From NCBI GenBank assembly GCA_025355745.1, contig JANXZA010000177.1, forward strand, positions 1 to 64,000: DNA of 64,000 nucleotides, written 5' to 3'. The notes beneath the pieces are model-generated. The model made no database searches and was not told the DNA's origin. It was given only the letters and a program-made list of their open reading frames with translations. Source of the stretch: Rhizobacter sp. GTDB lineage: Bacteria; Pseudomonadota; Gammaproteobacteria; Burkholderiales; Burkholderiaceae_C. Each line of letters opens with the position of its first letter. The stretch's first letter is position 1. Shown here piece by piece: positions 200 to 10,647 of this stretch. The position numbers and the translations under genes are program-made.

Positions 200-757
200 G
201 TGGCGCCAGTCACGCGCGGACTTGAGCCCTATATTCCTCGTCCTGTGGGTGGCCCTCCCGATGCCTCGGCTGCCGCTGCCACCGGAGGCACGGCGACAAC
301 CAAGGCGAAGCCCCAGCGCAACGTCAGAAATCGCGACAACGATCGGTTTGTTGTTCCCTCCGGCTTCGTTGCGAAGGTAGATGACGCCGTTTTTCAACGT
401 CTTTTCTTGGAGCTTCGGACGGTCGACGCCGAGCGGTATTCGTTCGCTGCTACCTACCTGTTGCGCGCGGTGTTTGAACAGGCGACGACACTGTTCCTTT
501 CCCGTCAGGGCATTGCCCCACCGAAAGAGATGCATCTTAAGTTGGCAAAGGCCTGCGAGAAGCTTACGACCCAGGGCTACGGCGGCAAAGGTCTGCCCGC
601 TTTGCGCAAGATGTCGAGCGATGTGGACTCCAAATACTCCCCAGACACAATCGGTCTCTTCATTCACGGCGGTGCCGTGCCGACTCGCATCAATGCCATC
701 CGGGCATGGGATACGTTCGAGCCGATCTTGTCGGAAATGGTGCGGCAACTGAGCTGA
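200..757 (+). CDS. hypothetical protein, probably 5'-truncated by the adjacent IS end
   Basis: 185-aa ORF with GTG start. The same frame stays open upstream to at least ~101, through the IS terminus. Ends just before the adenine methylase. Confidence 0.55.
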   Translation: MAPVTRGLEPYIPRPVGGPPDASAAAATGGTATTKAKPQRNVRNRDNDRFVVPSGFVAKVDDAVFQRLFLELRTVDAERYSFAATYLLRAVFEQATTLFLSRQGIAPPKEMHLKLAKACEKLTTQGYGGKGLPALRKMSSDVDSKYSPDTIGLFIHGGAVPTRINAIRAWDTFEPILSEMVRQLS

Positions 758-802: not shown

Positions 803-1711
803 ATGCCAGTCACCGACACCCCCCTTCGATATCCCGGCGGCAAGAGCCAGCTCACCCCGGTCGTGGTCGACATCCTGACCAGAAACGGCATGCTCTACGG
901 CGAGTACGCGGAACCGTTCGCCGGCGGCGCGGGCATCGCAATGACCTTGCTGCTCAACAACTATGTCAGCGGCATTTACCTCAACGACATCGATCCGGCC
1001 ATCTACGCGTTCTGGCACAGCGTCTTGCATCAGCCCGATGCTCTGTCTGCCCGTATTCAGCAAGTCGAGGTGACCATCGAAGAGTGGCATCGGCAGCGCA
1101 AGGTCTTTCTTGACCCGGACTGCACGGACATTTTGGACAAGGGGTTCGCGACGCTGTTCTTGAACAGAACGAATCGATCCGGAATTCTTCGTGGTGGAGT
1201 GATTGGCGGTCTTCAACAGACCGGGAACTACAAGATTGGCTGCCGCTTCAACAAGGCCGACTTGACTCGAAAGGTTCGCCGCATCGCTGACTATCAGGAT
1301 CAAATTACGCTGACCTGCATGGATGCCGCGAAGTTTGTGAAGAAGGTATTTCCCAAGTCGAGCAGCAATACACTCGTGAACCTGGATCCGCCATATTTTG
1401 GAAAGGGCCCGGAACTGTACACAAATTTCTACAAAGCCGCCGACCATGCGAAGCTGGCCGACGCTGTCTCCTTGCTGAAGCGGAGATGGATCGTCACGTA
1501 CGACGACACGCCCGAAATCAGGCAACTATATGACGCGCATCCCACGTACAGCAGCAGCCTCAACTATTCCGCTCAAATCAAGCGCGTCGGAGTTGAGTTG
1601 CTCGTGGCTGATCGTCGGCTGAAATTGCCCCCATCATTTGCGAGCATGGAGATCACAAGGACGAGTCGCGTGATGGTGCGGCAACCCGCTGCGATGAGGA
1701 TCGCGGCGTAA
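803..1711 (+). CDS. D12-class DNA adenine N6-methyltransferase
   Basis: RYPGGKS N-terminus, FAGGAG AdoMet motif and NLDPPYFGKG (DPPY catalytic motif). Confidence 0.9.
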   Translation: MPVTDTPLRYPGGKSQLTPVVVDILTRNGMLYGEYAEPFAGGAGIAMTLLLNNYVSGIYLNDIDPAIYAFWHSVLHQPDALSARIQQVEVTIEEWHRQRKVFLDPDCTDILDKGFATLFLNRTNRSGILRGGVIGGLQQTGNYKIGCRFNKADLTRKVRRIADYQDQITLTCMDAAKFVKKVFPKSSSNTLVNLDPPYFGKGPELYTNFYKAADHAKLADAVSLLKRRWIVTYDDTPEIRQLYDAHPTYSSSLNYSAQIKRVGVELLVADRRLKLPPSFASMEITRTSRVMVRQPAAMRIAA

Positions 1712-1764: not shown

Positions 1765-3948
1765 TCAAAGGCGGAACCCGGTCACGCGCTGAGTGCGGCG
1801 CAGCACTGTCGGACCGAGTTGCGCGTCGTCACCAACCAGCACGACCAATTCCCTTGCCCTGGTGATAGCCGTGTAGAGCCATTCCCTGGTCGCCAGGGCG
1901 CAGTTTTCGAGCACCACGACGACATTCTTCGCTGACGACCCCTGCGACCTGTGGCAGGTTGTCGCGTAGGCGAGTTCAACGTCGAGGCGGGCGTTGTCCT
2001 CCAGCGATCGTGCTTCGCTTTCGCCCTCCCACCGCACAAATACGGCGTCGTCGTTGTCGATAGCTTCCACCTTGCCTATCAAACCATTGAACATCGCTTC
2101 GCGATATCGATTCTTCGTGGCCACGACAGGGTCACCAACGGCAACTGTTGCCATGGGTCCGAGGCGCACGGTCTTGGCATCGCGTCCGCGCCTGAAGGCA
2201 GATTCCTCGTCGTTGATTGCGGCCACCGTGTCGCGAAGCGCGGCGACGACCATCACATCGCCGAGTGCCATGAGGCGCCGGTGCACGCTCTGCAAGTCCT
2301 TCGCTGGCACAGCGTAGACGCCCTTTGCTTGACCGTCCCACCGCTGAAGGCTTGGCACACGACCGGACCGCACTGTTGAAGCAGCGTGAGGGATCATGCT
2401 GTCCTCTGCTTGTCGGCGCACCTGCGTGAGAAGCGCCACACGCGTACCGTTCTCGACGAGATCATGGAACACCCGGCCGATGCCCACGGGGGGAAGCTGA
2501 CCATGGTCGCCGACCAGCAAGAGCCGTGCGCCGTAGGGCAGTCGCCCAAGAAGGGTGTGCAAGCCCGGCGTGTCGAGCATGCTCGCCTCATCGACGATCA
2601 GCAGCGTCTTGCCATCGACATAGACATCGGAGTCGAGCGGAGCACCACCGGATTCTTCGGCGCGTTGTTGACGCTCCAGCAGGCGCACTAGCCTCGCGAT
2701 CGTGTAGGCGATCCGCGGCCTTGAAGCCGACGACGCGCCACGCGAGAGTTGAAGGGCGGCTTTGCCAGCCAGAGCGCACATCACGACATTGCCGCCGAGG
2801 AATTCCCAAGCTGTCGAGAGCACCTTCATCACCGTAGTCTTACCGACGCCGGCGCCGCCTTGGAGCACAGCGAGCGGGAGCGCCAGCAATCGCACCACAG
2901 CGTCGTGCTGCTCTGCGGCGAGTTGCATCCCCGCCGCAGTCTCCGCATCGAAGACCGTACGCCGCAGTTCCGTCCCCGTGGGAATGGTCAGCGCTGCCGG
3001 CGCAGCTTCGAGCGCCAGAAGTTGCCGGCGCACGGAATCTTCAAGCCAGGCTGCACCGGGCGCTCGCAGCAAGCCGTCTATTCGGGCGATGGCGTGCCTT
3101 TCTTCGGCCAGTTGAAGCGCGAGTGCCGGATCGACTTTGCGAGCGCGTAGAAGCGTCGCCAAGCGCTCTGGTGTTGCGGCGGTGTCGCCATCGGCGAGGA
3201 CTTCGCGCCAGCAGCTGTCCAGCGCGCCGAGAAGTCGATCCGGATGGTGGTCCACGCCGTCCTTCTCTCCCGTCGCCTTCAGCAGCCTCATGCCCACGTA
3301 ATCAGCCTTCTTCCAACTCGTCAGGCTGGCAAGCAGGTAGGGGTTGCGCTGCAGGCGTTGCTTGGCGTCCAAGCCACCCACGAGATTCCACAGCCGCCGC
3401 GAGACCTGTACGTCGACCACGTGTAACGACTCAAGGTAGGCCAAGAATTCAACTTCCGCCGCAGCGGTGGCGTCGGCACCGGACTTCGCGGCGACGGCCG
3501 CGTAGAGCTGCTGAGCGATGCGAAGAGCAAGCCGAGGCTTGCCGGGTTCAAGTACTGCGGCAACCTCGTCGACGCGGGAAAAGTCGTTGAGGGTTTCAGG
3601 CAGGCTGGGCCCGAACGCGCTCACAAGCCTCGCGGATCGGGTCGGGCCAACGTTGGACAGTTTCTCCAGCCACGGGCCCAGCAAAGCGCCGGTACTGATG
3701 ACCCGCCGCATGCGCTTGGACTCGACTTGTGTCACGGCCTTGCCGTATCGATCCGTGAAGCTGCCCTTGAGTCCCAGTACCTCGAACGCTTCGCCGGGAA
3801 GTGGCTGAGTTTCCCTGCCGGAAAATTTGACGCGCAGGAGTCGTCCATCGTCGCCCTTGGCGGAAAAGATGCAGCCGTTCTCCAGTTGCGAGAGCACTCG
3901 CTCGACGACCACGGTGCCGCTGAAGTTGTCGAGTGCGGCGACCGTCAT
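1765..3948 (-). CDS. RecD/RecD2-like SF1 DNA helicase
   Basis: 727 aa. Walker A GGAGVGKTT, Walker B LLIVDEASMLD, LVGDHGQLPPVG, and C-terminal ATTCHRSQGSSAKNVVVVLEN...LYTAITRAREL. Start overlaps the preceding stop (ATGA). Confidence 0.88.
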   Translation of the reverse strand: MTVAALDNFSGTVVVERVLSQLENGCIFSAKGDDGRLLRVKFSGRETQPLPGEAFEVLGLKGSFTDRYGKAVTQVESKRMRRVISTGALLGPWLEKLSNVGPTRSARLVSAFGPSLPETLNDFSRVDEVAAVLEPGKPRLALRIAQQLYAAVAAKSGADATAAAEVEFLAYLESLHVVDVQVSRRLWNLVGGLDAKQRLQRNPYLLASLTSWKKADYVGMRLLKATGEKDGVDHHPDRLLGALDSCWREVLADGDTAATPERLATLLRARKVDPALALQLAEERHAIARIDGLLRAPGAAWLEDSVRRQLLALEAAPAALTIPTGTELRRTVFDAETAAGMQLAAEQHDAVVRLLALPLAVLQGGAGVGKTTVMKVLSTAWEFLGGNVVMCALAGKAALQLSRGASSASRPRIAYTIARLVRLLERQQRAEESGGAPLDSDVYVDGKTLLIVDEASMLDTPGLHTLLGRLPYGARLLLVGDHGQLPPVGIGRVFHDLVENGTRVALLTQVRRQAEDSMIPHAASTVRSGRVPSLQRWDGQAKGVYAVPAKDLQSVHRRLMALGDVMVVAALRDTVAAINDEESAFRRGRDAKTVRLGPMATVAVGDPVVATKNRYREAMFNGLIGKVEAIDNDDAVFVRWEGESEARSLEDNARLDVELAYATTCHRSQGSSAKNVVVVLENCALATREWLYTAITRARELVVLVGDDAQLGPTVLRRTQRVTGFRL

Positions 3949-4439
3949 GGAGACACCCGGACAAAGACGCCAGCGTGGATCAGCTCAAGCTGGCTGCGCA
4001 GACGCATGTTCTCGGACTTGAGCGTTTCTATCTCTGCGACTGCAGCGGCAAACTCTTCCAACAGGCGCTTCTCGGCCGCCTTGGCTTCGACAGCAGCCTG
4101 CGCGTCCGCACGAGCAGATTTGGCCTGCTGTGCAAGGCGAGTTCGGACTGCCTTGTCGACCATGTCGAGATTTCGAGCGCCGATGGGGAGCAGGCCTTGT
4201 CCCTCGGCCATCAGATTGATCAGCGATGAAAGCTCGTCACGCTCGAAGAGATACTTCTCCTGCGTTTGGCGCAACTCGATCGCCAGTGCAATGGCGCGCA
4301 CGTTCACCTTGCCGTCAGTTGTGGCCGGCAGCGTCGCGGTACGGTCATCCTCTGGTTGTTGTCTGTACTGGGCTTCGAGGTCTTCAAGGTACTGCTCCAA
4401 CTTGGCGCGTACTGACGGAATGATGCTGGGTCTTGGCAT
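3945..4439 (-). CDS. small coiled-coil protein of the recombinase operon
   Basis: MPRPSIIPSVRAKLEQYLEDLEAQ...KRLLEEFAAAVAEIETLKSENMRLRSQLELI; heptad-rich C-terminus. Confidence 0.7.
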   Translation of the reverse strand: MPRPSIIPSVRAKLEQYLEDLEAQYRQQPEDDRTATLPATTDGKVNVRAIALAIELRQTQEKYLFERDELSSLINLMAEGQGLLPIGARNLDMVDKAVRTRLAQQAKSARADAQAAVEAKAAEKRLLEEFAAAVAEIETLKSENMRLRSQLELIHAGVFVRVSP

Positions 4440-4449
4440 GCTGTGCGGC

Positions 4450-4977
4450 TCATTTGTCTCGGTTTGGAAACGCAACGACCTTGGCAGCGCCGGTGCTTTC
4501 AAGGACCTTCCGCAATGCCGCGTTCTCATCCTCTAGCTTCTGTACCGAGCGCTGCAATTTCTGCACTGTGGCCCTCATGTCGAGGTATTCGAGTTCTGCT
4601 GCTCGGTAGCTCTGCGCGATCGCAGCGTGGGCTCGCTTCCAGTCGTCAGCTCGGTCAGTGACGGCCCTGCGCACAGATTTCCTGCCTGTGATGGCGGCAC
4701 TCCTGATGCGGGTGAGCCATGCCTCAACCATCTTGTGCGTCGTGTCGCGGTGCGCAGGGGTGGAAAGCGTAACGTTGCTAATCCCTGCTCGGCGACAAAG
4801 CTCCGCCTGGCTCAGCTTGCCACCATTGAGGGGGTAGATGCCTTCATGCGCATCGATCTCGGTCTCGATGGTTTTCATCGATGCGCGCAGCTTGGTGACA
4901 ACCGCTTGGGTTCGCTTCTTTGCAAACGCGATCAGCCCTGACGGTGCGGAGAGATCGGTGGTGCCGGTTGCTTTCAT
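4450..4977 (-). CDS. TnpC/GmtX-like accessory protein with helical C-terminus
   Basis: ATGA overlap with the upstream recombinase. HTH-like QAELCRRAGISNVTL and coiled coil VQKLQRSVQKLEDENAALRKVLEST. Confidence 0.65.
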   Translation of the reverse strand: MKATGTTDLSAPSGLIAFAKKRTQAVVTKLRASMKTIETEIDAHEGIYPLNGGKLSQAELCRRAGISNVTLSTPAHRDTTHKMVEAWLTRIRSAAITGRKSVRRAVTDRADDWKRAHAAIAQSYRAAELEYLDMRATVQKLQRSVQKLEDENAALRKVLESTGAAKVVAFPNRDK

Positions 4978-7088
4978 ACTGCCAACTCCTCTTTGCGCAC
5001 CACCTGCATGATGGTCGAGTTGGTGGCCCACTTCCGATGAATGTCTTCGAAGCGCCTCAGGTGAGCCAGGATTTGCCCAGCCCAGAACTCTTGGCCCATT
5101 TCGTTGTCGTCGGCTACTTCCAACTCGTACAGCCGGACTGCCTCGGCAATGGACCGGTCGATGTCGTCTCGCAGATAGGCCTCCTCCAGCCGGTGATCGC
5201 AACCCCATCGACAACGGGATGGCTCCGGGCGCCCCACCTTCTTTGTGCATGGCCCTGAACTGCCCGGCAGCTTGGTGCATATGACGCCGGGGCGTACGAG
5301 CGCCCAACTCTGGCCGCTGAGGGTAAGAATCTCTGCCAGTTGGCGGATGTCGTCGGCGCCAAGGTCTCTGCCCAGCCGAACGCGCTCTTGAACAAGCATG
5401 CCGGCGATCTTCTTCGCCGCAGGCCCACCATAGTTGTCAATGTCCTCGATAGCGTCAGTCGCGCGCATGACGGCCACTTCCTCGACGACCTGCTTGATCT
5501 CTGCCTGAACGTCGGGGTCAGAAAGGATGTAGTGCAGCGTCATCTCGATGCTCTTGTGGCCGAAGAGGTCCATGAGGATCTTGGGCGCACCTGAGAGCGC
5601 CAGCGCGGCAAGCCTCGCTACGGTCTTTCGGAACCGATGCGTCGTGAGATTCGTGCCGCCGGGTTTGTCTGTCAGTCCCAGGGCGATGGCCATGAGACGC
5701 AGGCGCTCGTTGATGTCGGAAGAGAACTCCTTCCGACTCCCAACCCGAGGCCACATCGTGCGGCGCTCGCTGTTGATGTCCGAGGCGTCTGGCTCAGGAT
5801 CGCCTCCCAAGTACCCAAGTCTATGGATGAGGCCGCAGAGAATGTCTTGCTGTTTGAGCGCGTCGAGTGCGACATCGGGTAGCGGCCAATCTCGCTGTGC
5901 ACCTCCGATTTGATCGACCAGTTTGTAGGTCAGCCCGTTCGCGAACGGGGTGCCGTCCGAGGAGTGCACGATCGAGCCCGGTCTGAACGAAAGCATTTCA
6001 CCAATGCGCGATCCGACGCTCAACAACGCGATCCAAAGATGCGACATCTGCAGCAATTGGAGTAGGCCTACGACTTGGGCTGCAGTTGTTGGGGGCCATT
6101 GCTGCGCTTCCTGTCTCTCCAATGTTGTCCCGGCCCAGACGTTGGCGACAAGTTGAAACGGCGGGGCGTCAAACTGATTGCCACTCCTGTCGACCCATCT
6201 GTGTTCTGCGAGGATGTGCTTGAACTTTAGGCGCCGCCGACCCGCGACGGCGTCAGACAGAACGTCTGAGCCTTCGATTGGATGCTGAGCGACCACATCG
6301 GCGAACTGAGCGGCGACGGCGAGCAAAGTTGGGCCAAGATCGCGAGCGACCCATAGAACCCTCCATCCGCCCTCCGCGATGTAATCGTCAGGCAAAGGCT
6401 GGCGCTTGGATCGCCTCGACTCGGACTTGGGGCGCCGGTCTTCGCCACGGACATCTGGGGTGTAGTGCTGGGACCACTTTCTTGCGGCGAGCTGAGGGCA
6501 ATCTGCCCAGAGGCCTCGGTCGCATAGCGCGATGATTCGGTCGAGTTCGCAACGGAGATCGACCTGTATGTTCTCGCTCTTGATTTCGGAAAGGTCCTCC
6601 GCCGTGTAGAAGCTCATGAAACTACCGGCCGCAGCGTCGTCCGGGCCCATGTGTTGCACGGCGCCTTTGATGAGTCGTGGCACCGTTTGATGCAAGATGC
6701 GGCAGAGCGTGGTCAGCGCGAGATGGCGGCCGTTTGAACGGCCCGAACCTGTGGGCGCGAGTGCGAGAAGAACGGCGTAGCGGACAAGGTACAGGAGCGC
6801 AGGCTCGATGTACTCCTCGGGCACGCCCTGAGACTTGAGTCTGTTCCTGAAATCAATCCTCGCCATATGCCTTGACAGCGGCGGCAACCAGTCCGTTGAT
6901 GTCTCCCATATTCCAAACGTCGCGCCAAAGCCGAGCTTTGATTGAACAGACACGAGGTCTTTCGGCGCCAGAGACTGAATGTTCGCTGAACGCATGTCGA
7001 GAAGCACTTCGTCGCGGAGTTCCACGACATTGCTTGCGGGTGCGCGGTCTTTCTGACTACCCCTAAGGGGTTTGGCGGCAGTGCTCAC
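4974..7088 (-). CDS. tyrosine recombinase/integrase (third of trio)
   Basis: 704 aa, GTG start. Box I SVGSRIGEML, box II TTHRFRKTVA, FGHKSIEMTLHYIL with nucleophile Tyr. Confidence 0.85.
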   Translation of the reverse strand: MSTAAKPLRGSQKDRAPASNVVELRDEVLLDMRSANIQSLAPKDLVSVQSKLGFGATFGIWETSTDWLPPLSRHMARIDFRNRLKSQGVPEEYIEPALLYLVRYAVLLALAPTGSGRSNGRHLALTTLCRILHQTVPRLIKGAVQHMGPDDAAAGSFMSFYTAEDLSEIKSENIQVDLRCELDRIIALCDRGLWADCPQLAARKWSQHYTPDVRGEDRRPKSESRRSKRQPLPDDYIAEGGWRVLWVARDLGPTLLAVAAQFADVVAQHPIEGSDVLSDAVAGRRRLKFKHILAEHRWVDRSGNQFDAPPFQLVANVWAGTTLERQEAQQWPPTTAAQVVGLLQLLQMSHLWIALLSVGSRIGEMLSFRPGSIVHSSDGTPFANGLTYKLVDQIGGAQRDWPLPDVALDALKQQDILCGLIHRLGYLGGDPEPDASDINSERRTMWPRVGSRKEFSSDINERLRLMAIALGLTDKPGGTNLTTHRFRKTVARLAALALSGAPKILMDLFGHKSIEMTLHYILSDPDVQAEIKQVVEEVAVMRATDAIEDIDNYGGPAAKKIAGMLVQERVRLGRDLGADDIRQLAEILTLSGQSWALVRPGVICTKLPGSSGPCTKKVGRPEPSRCRWGCDHRLEEAYLRDDIDRSIAEAVRLYELEVADDNEMGQEFWAGQILAHLRRFEDIHRKWATNSTIMQVVRKEELAV

Positions 7089-9118
7089 GTGTAGGTTCCT
7101 TCAAAGACAATGGGGACATGCTTGCCAGACTTGATCTGATCCCGCCAATAGCTCAGTCGCTCGCGAACTACCTGCGCATCGAAACGCGTGAGGATGGTCT
7201 CGGTGTTTTCAAGTTCTTGGGGGAAGCTCGACTCGTTCAACACGGGCACGGGGATCTTGTCTCTGGTGTCTTCCAGTTCGGCTTGCCGTCGAGTGAGGTG
7301 CTCATAGCTGTCGTCAAAGACGATGGCGTGCGTGGGGCACAGGGTGCAGCGTTGAACACGGCACCCAGACCCATCATCGTGTTCCGGAGCAAGTGAAGAG
7401 GGTGGATGAGTGAAGTCCTTGCAACCTACGCCAACGCGGGTGCGGTTCTTCTTGTAGACCGCCAAGCGCTTACGCTCGTCATCTGAGACGCCGCCATGCT
7501 CCAACTTCGCACGGAGCACGGCGGGTTCCACCTTACGGTGAATCTCAATCTCATGCCAAACAGCGGTAGACAGTTCTCTGACCTTCCTGGCCGAATGGGC
7601 ACGCCATGCCTTGTGTCTCAGGTAAGTTTGCGTCGTGCCGGCGTTTTTGTGATTCGCGGCAACTTGCGCCGTCAGCACTGAGTAGTTGCTGAACTCGTAT
7701 GCAAATGCGATGTACGCGTCCCGGAAATCACCTGGCGAGATCGACTCTCGCACCTGTCTATCGGCCGGTTGCTTTCGGTTGATCTCGTGAATGAGCTGGC
7801 GCAAATACTGGCCGCCGCTTGTGGTGTTGAAATTGCCCACCGATAGCCGACGTATGCCTCTGTGCACGTCGAAGTAGAGCCACGGCGACTTCAAGCACTG
7901 TTCCAACTCAATACGCCGAAGTGTCAGCGTTTCGTTTCCGGCATCCGCCTGTAGGTCGGTCAATACCTGCAGATGCTCCTCGTTCAATTTCTTCCTCAGC
8001 GGCGCCGTTCGTTGCACCAGGCGGGTCAGGATTGTTCCCGGTGAATCAGTTCGCTTCTTCCGACCCATGCAGAAATGCTCTGATTGGCCCCGGCTCTTGA
8101 AGCCATACACCAAGTGGTAGTCAGGGTTGGTCGGGTGCGGCTCGACAAAGCGGCCGGTAACGTTCACGTCCAACAGCGTCTGGATGTTCCAACCCGAGTA
8201 CAGGAGGCACAGATTGAAGGCATTCCGTACGTCATCGCCATTGGGATAGAGGCCCAATTGGGGCACCCCAATTGGAGTCATCCAGACCATTTTCGATTGG
8301 AGACCAAGTGCATTGGCAACGTCGCGCAATGATGGCACCGGGTCGCCGGTTTCTGCGACCACCGCACGATAGACGGCGTGAACGCGGTCCTTCCACTGAT
8401 CGGCCGCGACCATCTTCCACGACCACATGTCGGGCTCTTGTTCGTCGGCGGACTCCCAGCGTTGGAGTGTCGCAAACCAGCCGTGCTTCAGCCGGTGGCG
8501 TATGACTTCTATCTCCCAGTGAGCAGGAACCTCGGACGACTTCTGAACGTAATCCGGTGAAGGCCAGTAGAGGCCCGGGAGCTTCTTCTGTTTAAGTCGG
8601 ATGTTGACCAAACGCAGGAAGTTGCCATGGTGGGTGGTGCTGACCTTGTTTCGTTTTGATATAGCGTAGTGCAGTTCGTGAAGGTCCTCAACTGCCTTCA
8701 CGCGGCTGGAGCCCACGGTCTGCGAGGTTTGATCGCCGCGCTCGGCTTCGTCGAGGACGCGCCACCACGTTCGGAGTGTTTGCAGATGATTGTTGCGATG
8801 GGACTGTGACTGCAATAGCCTCCACTCTTCCTTGATGGCAGGAAGCAAGTCCATGATCAGTTCGGGCCGTCCGGTGAAATCACCTGTCCACTGACTCTTG
8901 GCGTTGCCCTTCAAGTCTTCTTCCTGGACGCCCGTCGCGAACCGTCGAAGGTCGATCGGGATCGGCTTGGACGAATGCTCGGTCCAGAAGAGAAGTGGGT
9001 CGGAATCGCTTTGTCCAGGATTGGATGTCGCAACAGATGCCGGCATCTGTTGTGTTGAAACGAGCGTCAGAGCAGGGCCGTGCCGACCCTTGTTAACTTT
9101 GCGTCCTGGTTCAGCCAT
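7085..9118 (-). CDS. divergent tyrosine recombinase-like protein (second of trio; TnpB/GmtZ-like)
   Basis: 677 aa. C-terminal SPGDFRDAYIAFAYEFSNYSVLTAQVAANHKNAGTTQTYLRHK resembles the catalytic box II/III/Tyr region. Overlaps both neighbouring genes. Confidence 0.72.
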   Translation of the reverse strand: MAEPGRKVNKGRHGPALTLVSTQQMPASVATSNPGQSDSDPLLFWTEHSSKPIPIDLRRFATGVQEEDLKGNAKSQWTGDFTGRPELIMDLLPAIKEEWRLLQSQSHRNNHLQTLRTWWRVLDEAERGDQTSQTVGSSRVKAVEDLHELHYAISKRNKVSTTHHGNFLRLVNIRLKQKKLPGLYWPSPDYVQKSSEVPAHWEIEVIRHRLKHGWFATLQRWESADEQEPDMWSWKMVAADQWKDRVHAVYRAVVAETGDPVPSLRDVANALGLQSKMVWMTPIGVPQLGLYPNGDDVRNAFNLCLLYSGWNIQTLLDVNVTGRFVEPHPTNPDYHLVYGFKSRGQSEHFCMGRKKRTDSPGTILTRLVQRTAPLRKKLNEEHLQVLTDLQADAGNETLTLRRIELEQCLKSPWLYFDVHRGIRRLSVGNFNTTSGGQYLRQLIHEINRKQPADRQVRESISPGDFRDAYIAFAYEFSNYSVLTAQVAANHKNAGTTQTYLRHKAWRAHSARKVRELSTAVWHEIEIHRKVEPAVLRAKLEHGGVSDDERKRLAVYKKNRTRVGVGCKDFTHPPSSLAPEHDDGSGCRVQRCTLCPTHAIVFDDSYEHLTRRQAELEDTRDKIPVPVLNESSFPQELENTETILTRFDAQVVRERLSYWRDQIKSGKHVPIVFEGTYT

Positions 9119-10466
9119 GGTCGGTTCTCACTTCTGCATTCTTGTATTCGAGGTCGTCGAGGTACTCTGCGTACTGCAACTGGGTCTCGCCACTTGCGTA
9201 GATGCGAGCGACCCACTGAAGGTATCTCTCGGTTGTCGCCATATCGATGTGGCCGAGTTGAGGCTTGATCACTTGCTGAATGTCGCTCAGCGCGTTCGAC
9301 GTGATCCAGTCAATGGGAAGCTTGTCGACCTTTGCTGCGATGAGGTCGGCTCTCTTTTTCGACAAGGTCAGCAAGGTCTTGCAAGCCCAGTAGTGGCGAC
9401 CAGCATGGGGCGACCACCCGTCAAAGGGCAGGTTGCCAACACCGGTCCAGGCTTCGTAGAGCGTCTTGGCGGTAATGCGCTCGCCGGTGGACTCAGAGAT
9501 GAAAAGGTGGGGTGACGGCTTCGCGGCGCGCGCACGTTGTTCGGCTTTGGTTGGGGCTGCCTTGGCCCACTTCGCGCGCGCCGCGAAACGAGGACCGCGC
9601 CGGTACTCGTGCACCCGGTTCGCGAGTTCGAGTGGCATCCAGATGATCCGGGCGGGGCCGATCTTGTCGCCATGGTCTTCGCCGAAGTCTTGCCCCTTTG
9701 TTCCGAACTTGATCGTGGCCTCGACTTGCTCACCGATGACGTGCCAGTCTTCGATGCGCTCGGGGAGCGTATCTAACCGCCACGCGGCTGCTTCTTCTCT
9801 GCGAACGGCGGTCTTGATGATCAACTCGACCATCAAGGCCTTCGTGGCGCCCCTCTTTATCAGCACAGCCTGAAGCCACTTCTTCGTCTCGACATCAGTT
9901 GGGAGTCGCAAGGTCTTGGGGTCCAGGCGAACCTTCCCTACGCGACTCTCGACCTGTTGGCCTCGATGCCCGTGGCTGTCGGTGGCGCTTCTGACCTGGA
10001 CATAGTGAGTCGTCGTCGGCACCATGAACTCCTCGCGGATGCCCCGGAGCGCCGCCCAGGATAGGAAGTTGCAGGCTTCTTGCACGCGAGCATTGATCGT
10101 CGAAGGCGCCAACCCCTTGCCTTTGGTCGACCAACTCCCTTGGCTCATTTCTTTCTGATAGCCACCCAGCAGGTGCTGCGCGTAGTTGGCGTTCTTCCAG
10201 TCGACGCCGCGTAGTTCAGCCCACTCCAGGAAGTTCGACAGCGACTCGGCATAGGCCTGAAGGCTCAGCTTCGTCGGCATCCTGTTCGCGCCCCGTTTGC
10301 CCTTTGCCGTTGGCGTCCAGTCCAGCAACGCTCGCTCGATCACGTAGGTCGATGGGTCGCGCAGGTACTGCCACTCCCCGTCGAAGAAACACGGGACATG
10401 AGCGACCCTGTCGAAGCCCCGCTGACGGAGGTCCTGCTCATCAGGCCAGAAGATGTGAATTGACAT
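9111..10466 (-). CDS. tyrosine recombinase/integrase (first of trio)
   Basis: 451 aa. Box I TAVRREEAAAW, box II SPHAGRHYWAC, LGHIDMATTERYLQW. Confidence 0.88.
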   Translation of the reverse strand: MSIHIFWPDEQDLRQRGFDRVAHVPCFFDGEWQYLRDPSTYVIERALLDWTPTAKGKRGANRMPTKLSLQAYAESLSNFLEWAELRGVDWKNANYAQHLLGGYQKEMSQGSWSTKGKGLAPSTINARVQEACNFLSWAALRGIREEFMVPTTTHYVQVRSATDSHGHRGQQVESRVGKVRLDPKTLRLPTDVETKKWLQAVLIKRGATKALMVELIIKTAVRREEAAAWRLDTLPERIEDWHVIGEQVEATIKFGTKGQDFGEDHGDKIGPARIIWMPLELANRVHEYRRGPRFAARAKWAKAAPTKAEQRARAAKPSPHLFISESTGERITAKTLYEAWTGVGNLPFDGWSPHAGRHYWACKTLLTLSKKRADLIAAKVDKLPIDWITSNALSDIQQVIKPQLGHIDMATTERYLQWVARIYASGETQLQYAEYLDDLEYKNAEVRTDHG

Positions 10467-10533
10467 TTAATGAAAGCTGGTGGCTATCAGATTGGATAAT
10501 GTAACCCAAGAAAAAAGCTCTTGTAAGCTTCAT

Positions 10534-10647
10534 TTAATGTTTTCGTGGGGGCTTCCCTAAGGCATAGAACACGATGCCGCCGGCGTCGGTGTCTTCCCAA
10601 TACACGCGCAGCGTGAAGCGGTAGGCGAGGTCGTCGGGCAATTGCAC
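10534..10647 (-). pseudogene. ybgC: ybgC (acyl-CoA thioesterase of the tol-pal locus), truncated after 29 codons
   Basis: GTG start; VQLPDDLAYRFTLRVYWEDTDAGGIVFYA matches the conserved YbgC N-terminus, then switches at 10560 to unrelated LGKPPRKH*. Confidence 0.82.

Follow-up and report, generated by a model that had tools for sequence, protein, structure and literature searches.

Organization of the operon

The stretch of DNA analysed here (the window) comprises 64,000 nucleotides of Rhizobacter sp., from base 1 of contig JANXZA010000177.1 (C117) in a genome assembly of 284 contigs. Positions 1765-10466 hold an operon of six genes, all on the minus strand, in the order intA, tfp-like, intB, cc1, cc2 and a RecD2-like helicase gene (Table 1). 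These six genes are probably the means by which a genomic island moves, a mobility operon in which a four-gene core of the class represented by GInts (the ginABCD genomic islands; Bardaji et al. 2017, PMC5385486) and SEs (strand-biased circularizing integrative elements; PMC10214605) is joined by an optional, portable accessory module, the CC2-RecD pair, that aids transposition.

The genes are closely packed. Reading from the open reading frame (ORF) coordinates and the sequence, intA overlaps the tfp-like gene by 8 nt (-8), the tfp-like gene overlaps intB at a GTGA (-4), intB overlaps cc1 at an ATGA (-4), cc1 and cc2 are separated by a 10 nt gap (+10), and cc2 overlaps the helicase gene at a second ATGA (-4). 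The coordinates and computed spacings agree with an earlier note on this DNA, made without database searches, which had described the same six genes, overlaps and gap. Comparable spacing is seen at the corresponding junctions in Duganella (-1, 0, -4, +2, -4), Piscinibacter (-4, -4, -4, +6, -4) and Azohydromonas (-4, -8, -4, +2, -4), and the tight packing is therefore conserved and not a matter of chance.

IntA has the first arginine, HxxR and H..Y all present, and IntB has a complete R..HxxR..H..Y set, with matches to Phage_integrase at E-values of 1.9e-4 and 1.6e-5 respectively. The 677-aa Tfp-like protein has GWN in place of the first arginine and aspartate for the histidine of HxxR but retains the second arginine, H490 and Y499; its fold model is of low confidence (pLDDT 64), and the top match in the PDB is Cre (E-value 0.023, probability 0.98). 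Judged by its residues, this protein is recombinase-like but incomplete, so that only two of the three recombinases named in the earlier note, IntA and IntB, have all the catalytic residues. The cc1 product has a C-terminus similar to DUF6262 (E-value 0.033, below the cut-off), a counterpart is found in all of the related operons, and it is likely to correspond to GinD, Srap and TnpC. By their anatomy the first four genes make up a mobility operon of GInt/SE type, an assignment to a general type and not to one family.

The CC2 model (pLDDT 82) has a long C-terminal helix at residues 92-155. Its fold had no significant match in the PDB, and the window CC2 did not match the NCBI VPA1267 model (NF040697). 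A Sphingomonas relative matches that model at an E-value of 6e-5, below its cut-off, and profiles join the CC2 families stepwise as far as the VPA1267 family of gamma-mobile-trio (GMT) elements; as the NCBI name indicates, relatives of CC2 are already known as a family. The helicase carries the motifs GGAGVGKTT (residue 364), DEAS (453), GDHGQLPP (480), TCHRSQGS (664) and YTAITRARE (692), the intact motor set of a superfamily 1B (SF1B) helicase, and scores 250.5 bits against the RecD2 model TIGR01448 over residues 97-716, short of the equivalog cut-off of 500 bits.

Recurrence of the CC2-RecD pair

A scan of a genome collection with the RecD alignment gave 24 loci, ten of them weaker (L033-L042) and matching mainly the C-terminal motor part, and four more (L043-L046) fragments. 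All of the near-full-length RecD loci with upstream sequence (Duganella, Massilia, Piscinibacter, Azohydromonas, Kiloniella and two from Sphingomonas) have CC2 directly upstream, with a recombinase operon before it. The six-gene order of the window is shared by four other Burkholderiales elements, those of Duganella, Massilia (where the contig begins inside tfp), Piscinibacter and Azohydromonas. Identities among these loci are 43-73% for CC2 and 43-69% for RecD, compared with only 25-59% for the recombinases and cc1.

The pair also lies behind GMT operons on plasmids of Klebsiella, Vibrio and Providencia and in Photobacterium (read from ORFs), and accompanies a GMT-like core in Kiloniella; in Acidiphilium it stands between GmtZ and GmtX, inside the recombinase operon, and GmtX, VPA1267 and RecD are co-linear on many enterobacterial plasmids. 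It is found, likewise on plasmids, behind GInt-type operons in Rhizobium, Sinorhizobium, Brucella and Mesorhizobium, and a GInt-type element of Sphingomonas that carries it is located behind ssb, a reported GInt target (PMC5385486). Further copies occur with a recombinase operon in Paraburkholderia and ahead of the last integrase in Alteromonas. The spacing of CC2 and RecD is -4 to -8 nt throughout the loci listed, apart from those of rhizobia, where the value is +139. In several recombinase families the pair is thus placed just after the operon or within it, usually with an overlap of 4-8 nt. This recurrence in islands that have otherwise no relation to one another makes it probable that the helicase assists island movement and is not passenger DNA.

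Searches of broader samples yielded little. A CC2 search of 400 order-level and 399 phylum-level genomes returned only the window itself and two weak matches (L016 and L017), the former with no operon of the window type nearby, and a search for the VPA1267 family in 274 class-level genomes gave two sub-threshold matches. Among viral contigs no CC2 was found, and the RecD search gave one weak match (27%).

Phylogeny of the helicase

In a maximum-likelihood tree, 19 trio-associated helicases fall on one side of a branch (support 100/100) and six RecD-like plasmid helicases on the other, with a single change between the two contexts. The helicases compared were selected in part by annotation and do not form a random sample. 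Five of the six outgroup helicases have no adjoining recombinase operon, and the other lies behind a two-integrase pair on an Acetobacter plasmid (L084 2713-8190), where the helicase gene, of this other clade, follows at a 4-nt overlap and there is no CC2. When six loci were added as a check, the four that have no recombinase operon were placed outside the trio clade and two, the Photobacterium GMT and a Rhodovastum locus, within it; their contexts were unknown in advance, except for Photobacterium, whose GmtZ neighbour had already been seen, and Rhodovastum, with a neighbourhood that is hard to class, was excluded from the clade count. The enlarged tree (20 trio and 10 non-trio rows), built by a quick method and with several open forks, still has one change. 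Helicases of the window type group, with 100/100 support, with those of Kiloniella and Acidiphilium, which accompany GMT-like cores, and the pair therefore seems to have moved between trio types.

These patterns bear on the simplest alternative, that CC2-RecD is ordinary cargo retained by chance or hitch-hiking. Trios without the pair do occur within the same family, as cargo would predict, but position and coupling are the same across several trio families, and the trio context is tracked by a single helicase clade; this recurrence already disfavours the cargo explanation, which we regard as very improbable.

Optional nature of the pair

A number of observations weigh against a role for the pair in transposition. 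A family-level search that was not aimed at RecD found intB relatives in 5 of 301 genomes, of which two have CC2-RecD; in two others (G254 and G296) the four-gene operon is followed by unrelated genes. The third pair-less intB element (L011) is decayed, with tfp missing, and is not counted as proof that RecD is dispensable. Most of the GMTs sampled lack the pair: five plasmids have none behind gmtX, and an insertion sequence interrupts a sixth, that of Burkholderia glumae. Elements with and without RecD are interleaved on the intB tree, with modest support, and RecD appears to have been gained or lost repeatedly among trio elements. Decay evidently occurs: the RecD match is shortened in some GMTs of Citrobacter and Klebsiella, and in a set of Salmonella plasmids all that matches the operon is a piece of RecD (about 626 aa), with 99.7% identity to the helicase of the Klebsiella GMT. 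The pair thus appears to be dispensable, at least for persistence, and a minimal GInt with only its four core genes integrated and excised (PMC5385486). Moreover, the cross-family CC2 links depend partly on coiled-coil sequence.

The earlier note had proposed that the helicase and second coiled-coil protein belong to the transposition machinery and are not random cargo, and that islands with the same trio and unrelated genes in place of the pair would refute this. Such islands do occur (G254, G296 and the five GMT plasmids), which tells in part against the proposal, and the trio does not need the pair; comparison nevertheless supports the view that the pair is dedicated and not random cargo, since a single helicase clade recurs behind or inside the operons of several families.

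An optional gene pair could also be a two-gene anti-phage defence system that favours the first cargo slot and uses the operon promoter, with no part in recombination. The island does carry other defence genes, PD-Lambda-5 adjoining the operon and a Mokosh-like ORF at the far end, and RecD-like helicases are present in PADLOC models. What PADLOC recognises in the helicase, however, is its generic core, and it recognises nothing in CC2; the pair stands ahead of gmtX in Acidiphilium and of the last integrase in Alteromonas, in both cases within the recombinase operon, and no free-standing intact CC2-RecD copy was met among the sampled data. We consider a defence function unlikely.

A possible role in transposition

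The products of genes 1-4 most likely bring the two ends of the island into synapsis, recombine them with a stagger of 6 bp and insert the circle at a site within a conserved gene, in this case ybgC. CC2 is probably an adaptor, which would tether the helicase to the recombined ends, where the RecD2-like 5'-3' SF1B helicase may unwind or displace a strand so that the circle is copied out, or replicated, and then released. An unwinding or copying role would fit the reported copying out of SEs and the lack of empty sites described for some GInts, and transposition of such islands may be helicase-assisted and possibly replicative.

A Rhodovastum plasmid (L085 1162-12488) carries a run of genes for a large integrase-like protein, a small coiled-coil protein, a RepB-type primase, a CC2-like protein, RecD and a weak integrase. 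This run is possibly a primase-helicase version of the module, and the RepB-type primase beside CC2-RecD points to DNA synthesis; the primase, and the fact that certain recombinase operons enclose the pair, speak for a role in processing of element DNA. In a more specific and distinctly more tentative form, CC2-RecD would confer helicase-dependent, replicative ('copy-out') tyrosine-recombinase transposition that is portable across GInt, SE, GMT and other trio elements: after exchange of one strand by the recombinases, CC2 would load the helicase at the junction, and the unwinding that follows, joined in certain elements such as that of Rhodovastum by a primase of the element, would free a copied circle and leave the donor copy in place.

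The same primase could also be taken to mean that the helicase acts after excision, aiding survival or spread of the island by letting it replicate in the manner of a plasmid or by protecting the circle while it is transferred, and not in the recombination step; the related non-trio helicases are plasmid genes, which would agree with this. No origin or replication initiator is seen, however, in the assembled part of the island, the middle of which is missing from the assembly, and we think a purely post-excision role improbable.

Island ends, target gene and cargo

The operon sits in a genomic island that has its intA-side end at window position 10561 and its other end on contig C142; the G+C content of the operon part is 57-64%, against 65-73% in the adjoining chromosome. 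The island interrupts ybgC, which is intact next to tolQ in three congeners (G101, G202 and G276; loci L053, L054 and L055); the remainder of the gene lies on C142, followed by 4.8 kb of island. The uninterrupted attB, GTGTTC-TATGCC-AACTAC, has been converted to attL, GTGTTC-TATGCC-TTAGGG, and attR, ATAT-AAAGCC-AACTAC. The TATGCC of attL and AAAGCC of attR have only GCC in common, which is shorter than the imperfect direct repeats of 10-17 nt reported for GInts; for this single insertion, the pattern would fit a stagger of 6 bp in which a footprint is carried along, as described for SEs (PMC10214605). A local AAACAYTAAATGA pair, inverted at equal distance from both island ends, stands out (Table 1). 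Over the whole island ends a terminal inverted repeat was no better than in shuffled sequences (42/300 scored as high).

Table 1. Operon genes, island end and adjoining features in the window
Feature	Coordinates	Strand	Description
intA	9111..10466	-	451-aa tyrosine recombinase
tfp-like	7085..9118	-	677-aa recombinase-fold protein; Tfp/GinC counterpart by anatomy
intB	4974..7088	-	704-aa large tyrosine recombinase
cc1	4450..4977	-	175-aa small helix-turn-helix/coiled-coil protein
cc2	3945..4439	-	164 aa; helix-turn-helix-like N-terminus and long C-terminal helix
RecD2-like SF1B helicase	1765..3948	-	727 aa; motor motifs all intact
5' fragment of ybgC	10561..10647	-	cut by the island at codon 29 (VFYA/NYL)
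attL 6-bp core TATGCC	10561..10566	-	host ybgC outside, island inside (TTAGGG...)
Subterminal repeat AAACATTAAATGA	10530..10542	-	matches AAACACTAAATGA near the other end on C142, equal distance, inverted
PD-Lambda-5_B-like Dam-type methyltransferase (cargo)	803..1711	+	anti-phage defence; E-value 1.2e-117
C-terminal fragment of PD-Lambda-5_A (cargo)	200..757	+	E-value 5.4e-40; profile 278-439 of 440

Related elements break rarA in Piscinibacter (L025, about 3105) and a umuC-like gene in G015 (L011, about 208), in each case right after TTCTAY. It is possible that the island family follows a target rule in which a conserved gene is cut right after TTCTAY (ybgC at VFY, rarA at QFY, the umuC-like gene at NFY); Duganella (comM) and others give no exact fit. 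The Piscinibacter genome also has a full-length rarA (L009 1673-2980), 58% identical to the disrupted copy and within about 12 kb of it, which is possibly a replacement carried by the island.

PD-Lambda-5 is the first cargo, with its A gene reduced to the C-terminal third near the contig start; the first ~140 bases of the contig resemble the end of a repeated element, with short matches on C113 and C114. At the far end of the island (L063, C142 17645-22474) there is a Mokosh (MkoC)-like AAA ORF (E-value 1.4e-15), apparently split over two frames.

Comparison with known systems

The earlier note had named Tn554, RIT and GMT elements as known carriers of recombinase trios; membership fails for all three, and two closer by anatomy, GInt and SE, had been missed. 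Tn554, with two recombinases and TnpC, is ruled out by the third large recombinase-like protein. RIT elements have three recombinases of about 315-410 aa (PMC10214605), with the catalytic tyrosine and no small protein, whereas the window has proteins of 451, 677 and 704 aa and a small one. In the profile check against GMTs only the GmtZ model gave a match (E-value 0.079, 10.9 bits where the cut-off is 600), and profile comparison of the window trio with GMT trios gave no confident homology. Some GMTs have the same CC2-RecD pair at the same relative place, but the window core consists of four genes and not three, and these are not GmtY, GmtZ and GmtX.

The resemblance to GInts lies in an operon of three recombinase-like genes and one small helix-loop-helix/coiled-coil protein, and in varied cargo behind ginD. 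GInts insert site-specifically into a coding gene with a 6-nt stagger, and the window island, precisely inserted in ybgC with the empty site present in three congeners, may do likewise. It differs in that the incomplete recombinase, GinC, is third in GInts, next to ginD, while in the window the incomplete one is second and the third is complete. Profile comparison of the window core with the GInt-like cores of Sphingomonas and Rhizobium, the prototype GinABCD lying outside this comparison, gave no confident similarity. The GInt core genes are all required for excision and integration, and some GInts leave no empty site (PMC5385486).

SEs, which are characterised by strand-biased circularization without an empty site and appear to copy out (PMC10214605), share the gene order of intA, an incomplete tfp, intB and a small protein, and the 6-bp pattern at the window island ends would fit their footprint rule. 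Tfp of SEs is without the RHRY set, of which the window protein has lost the first arginine and first histidine but kept the rest. SEs are reported mainly from Gammaproteobacteria, however, and their authors found no Tfp or Srap homologue in Betaproteobacteria (PMC10214605). The helicase resembles RecD2/YrrC SF1B enzymes in its N-terminal region, motor motifs and SH3-like part, but scores below the equivalog cut-off and belongs to a clade of its own, one linked to trio operons.

No helicase is assigned to trio-type islands (GInt, SE and GMT) in the GInt and SE papers, and the word 'helicase' is absent from both (PMC5385486, PMC10214605). A literature search for the combination of a trio element and a helicase gave nothing relevant, although a link between VPA1267 and RecD in GMTs may have been recorded before. 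We note that the CC2-RecD pair, which recurs across recombinase families and includes copies on conjugative resistance plasmids, is a candidate, open to testing, for the unwinding step that is missing from accounts of their transposition, and could be used as a marker for trio-type islands. What is new here is the extension of a known four-gene recombinase set by a recurrent helicase-adaptor pair.

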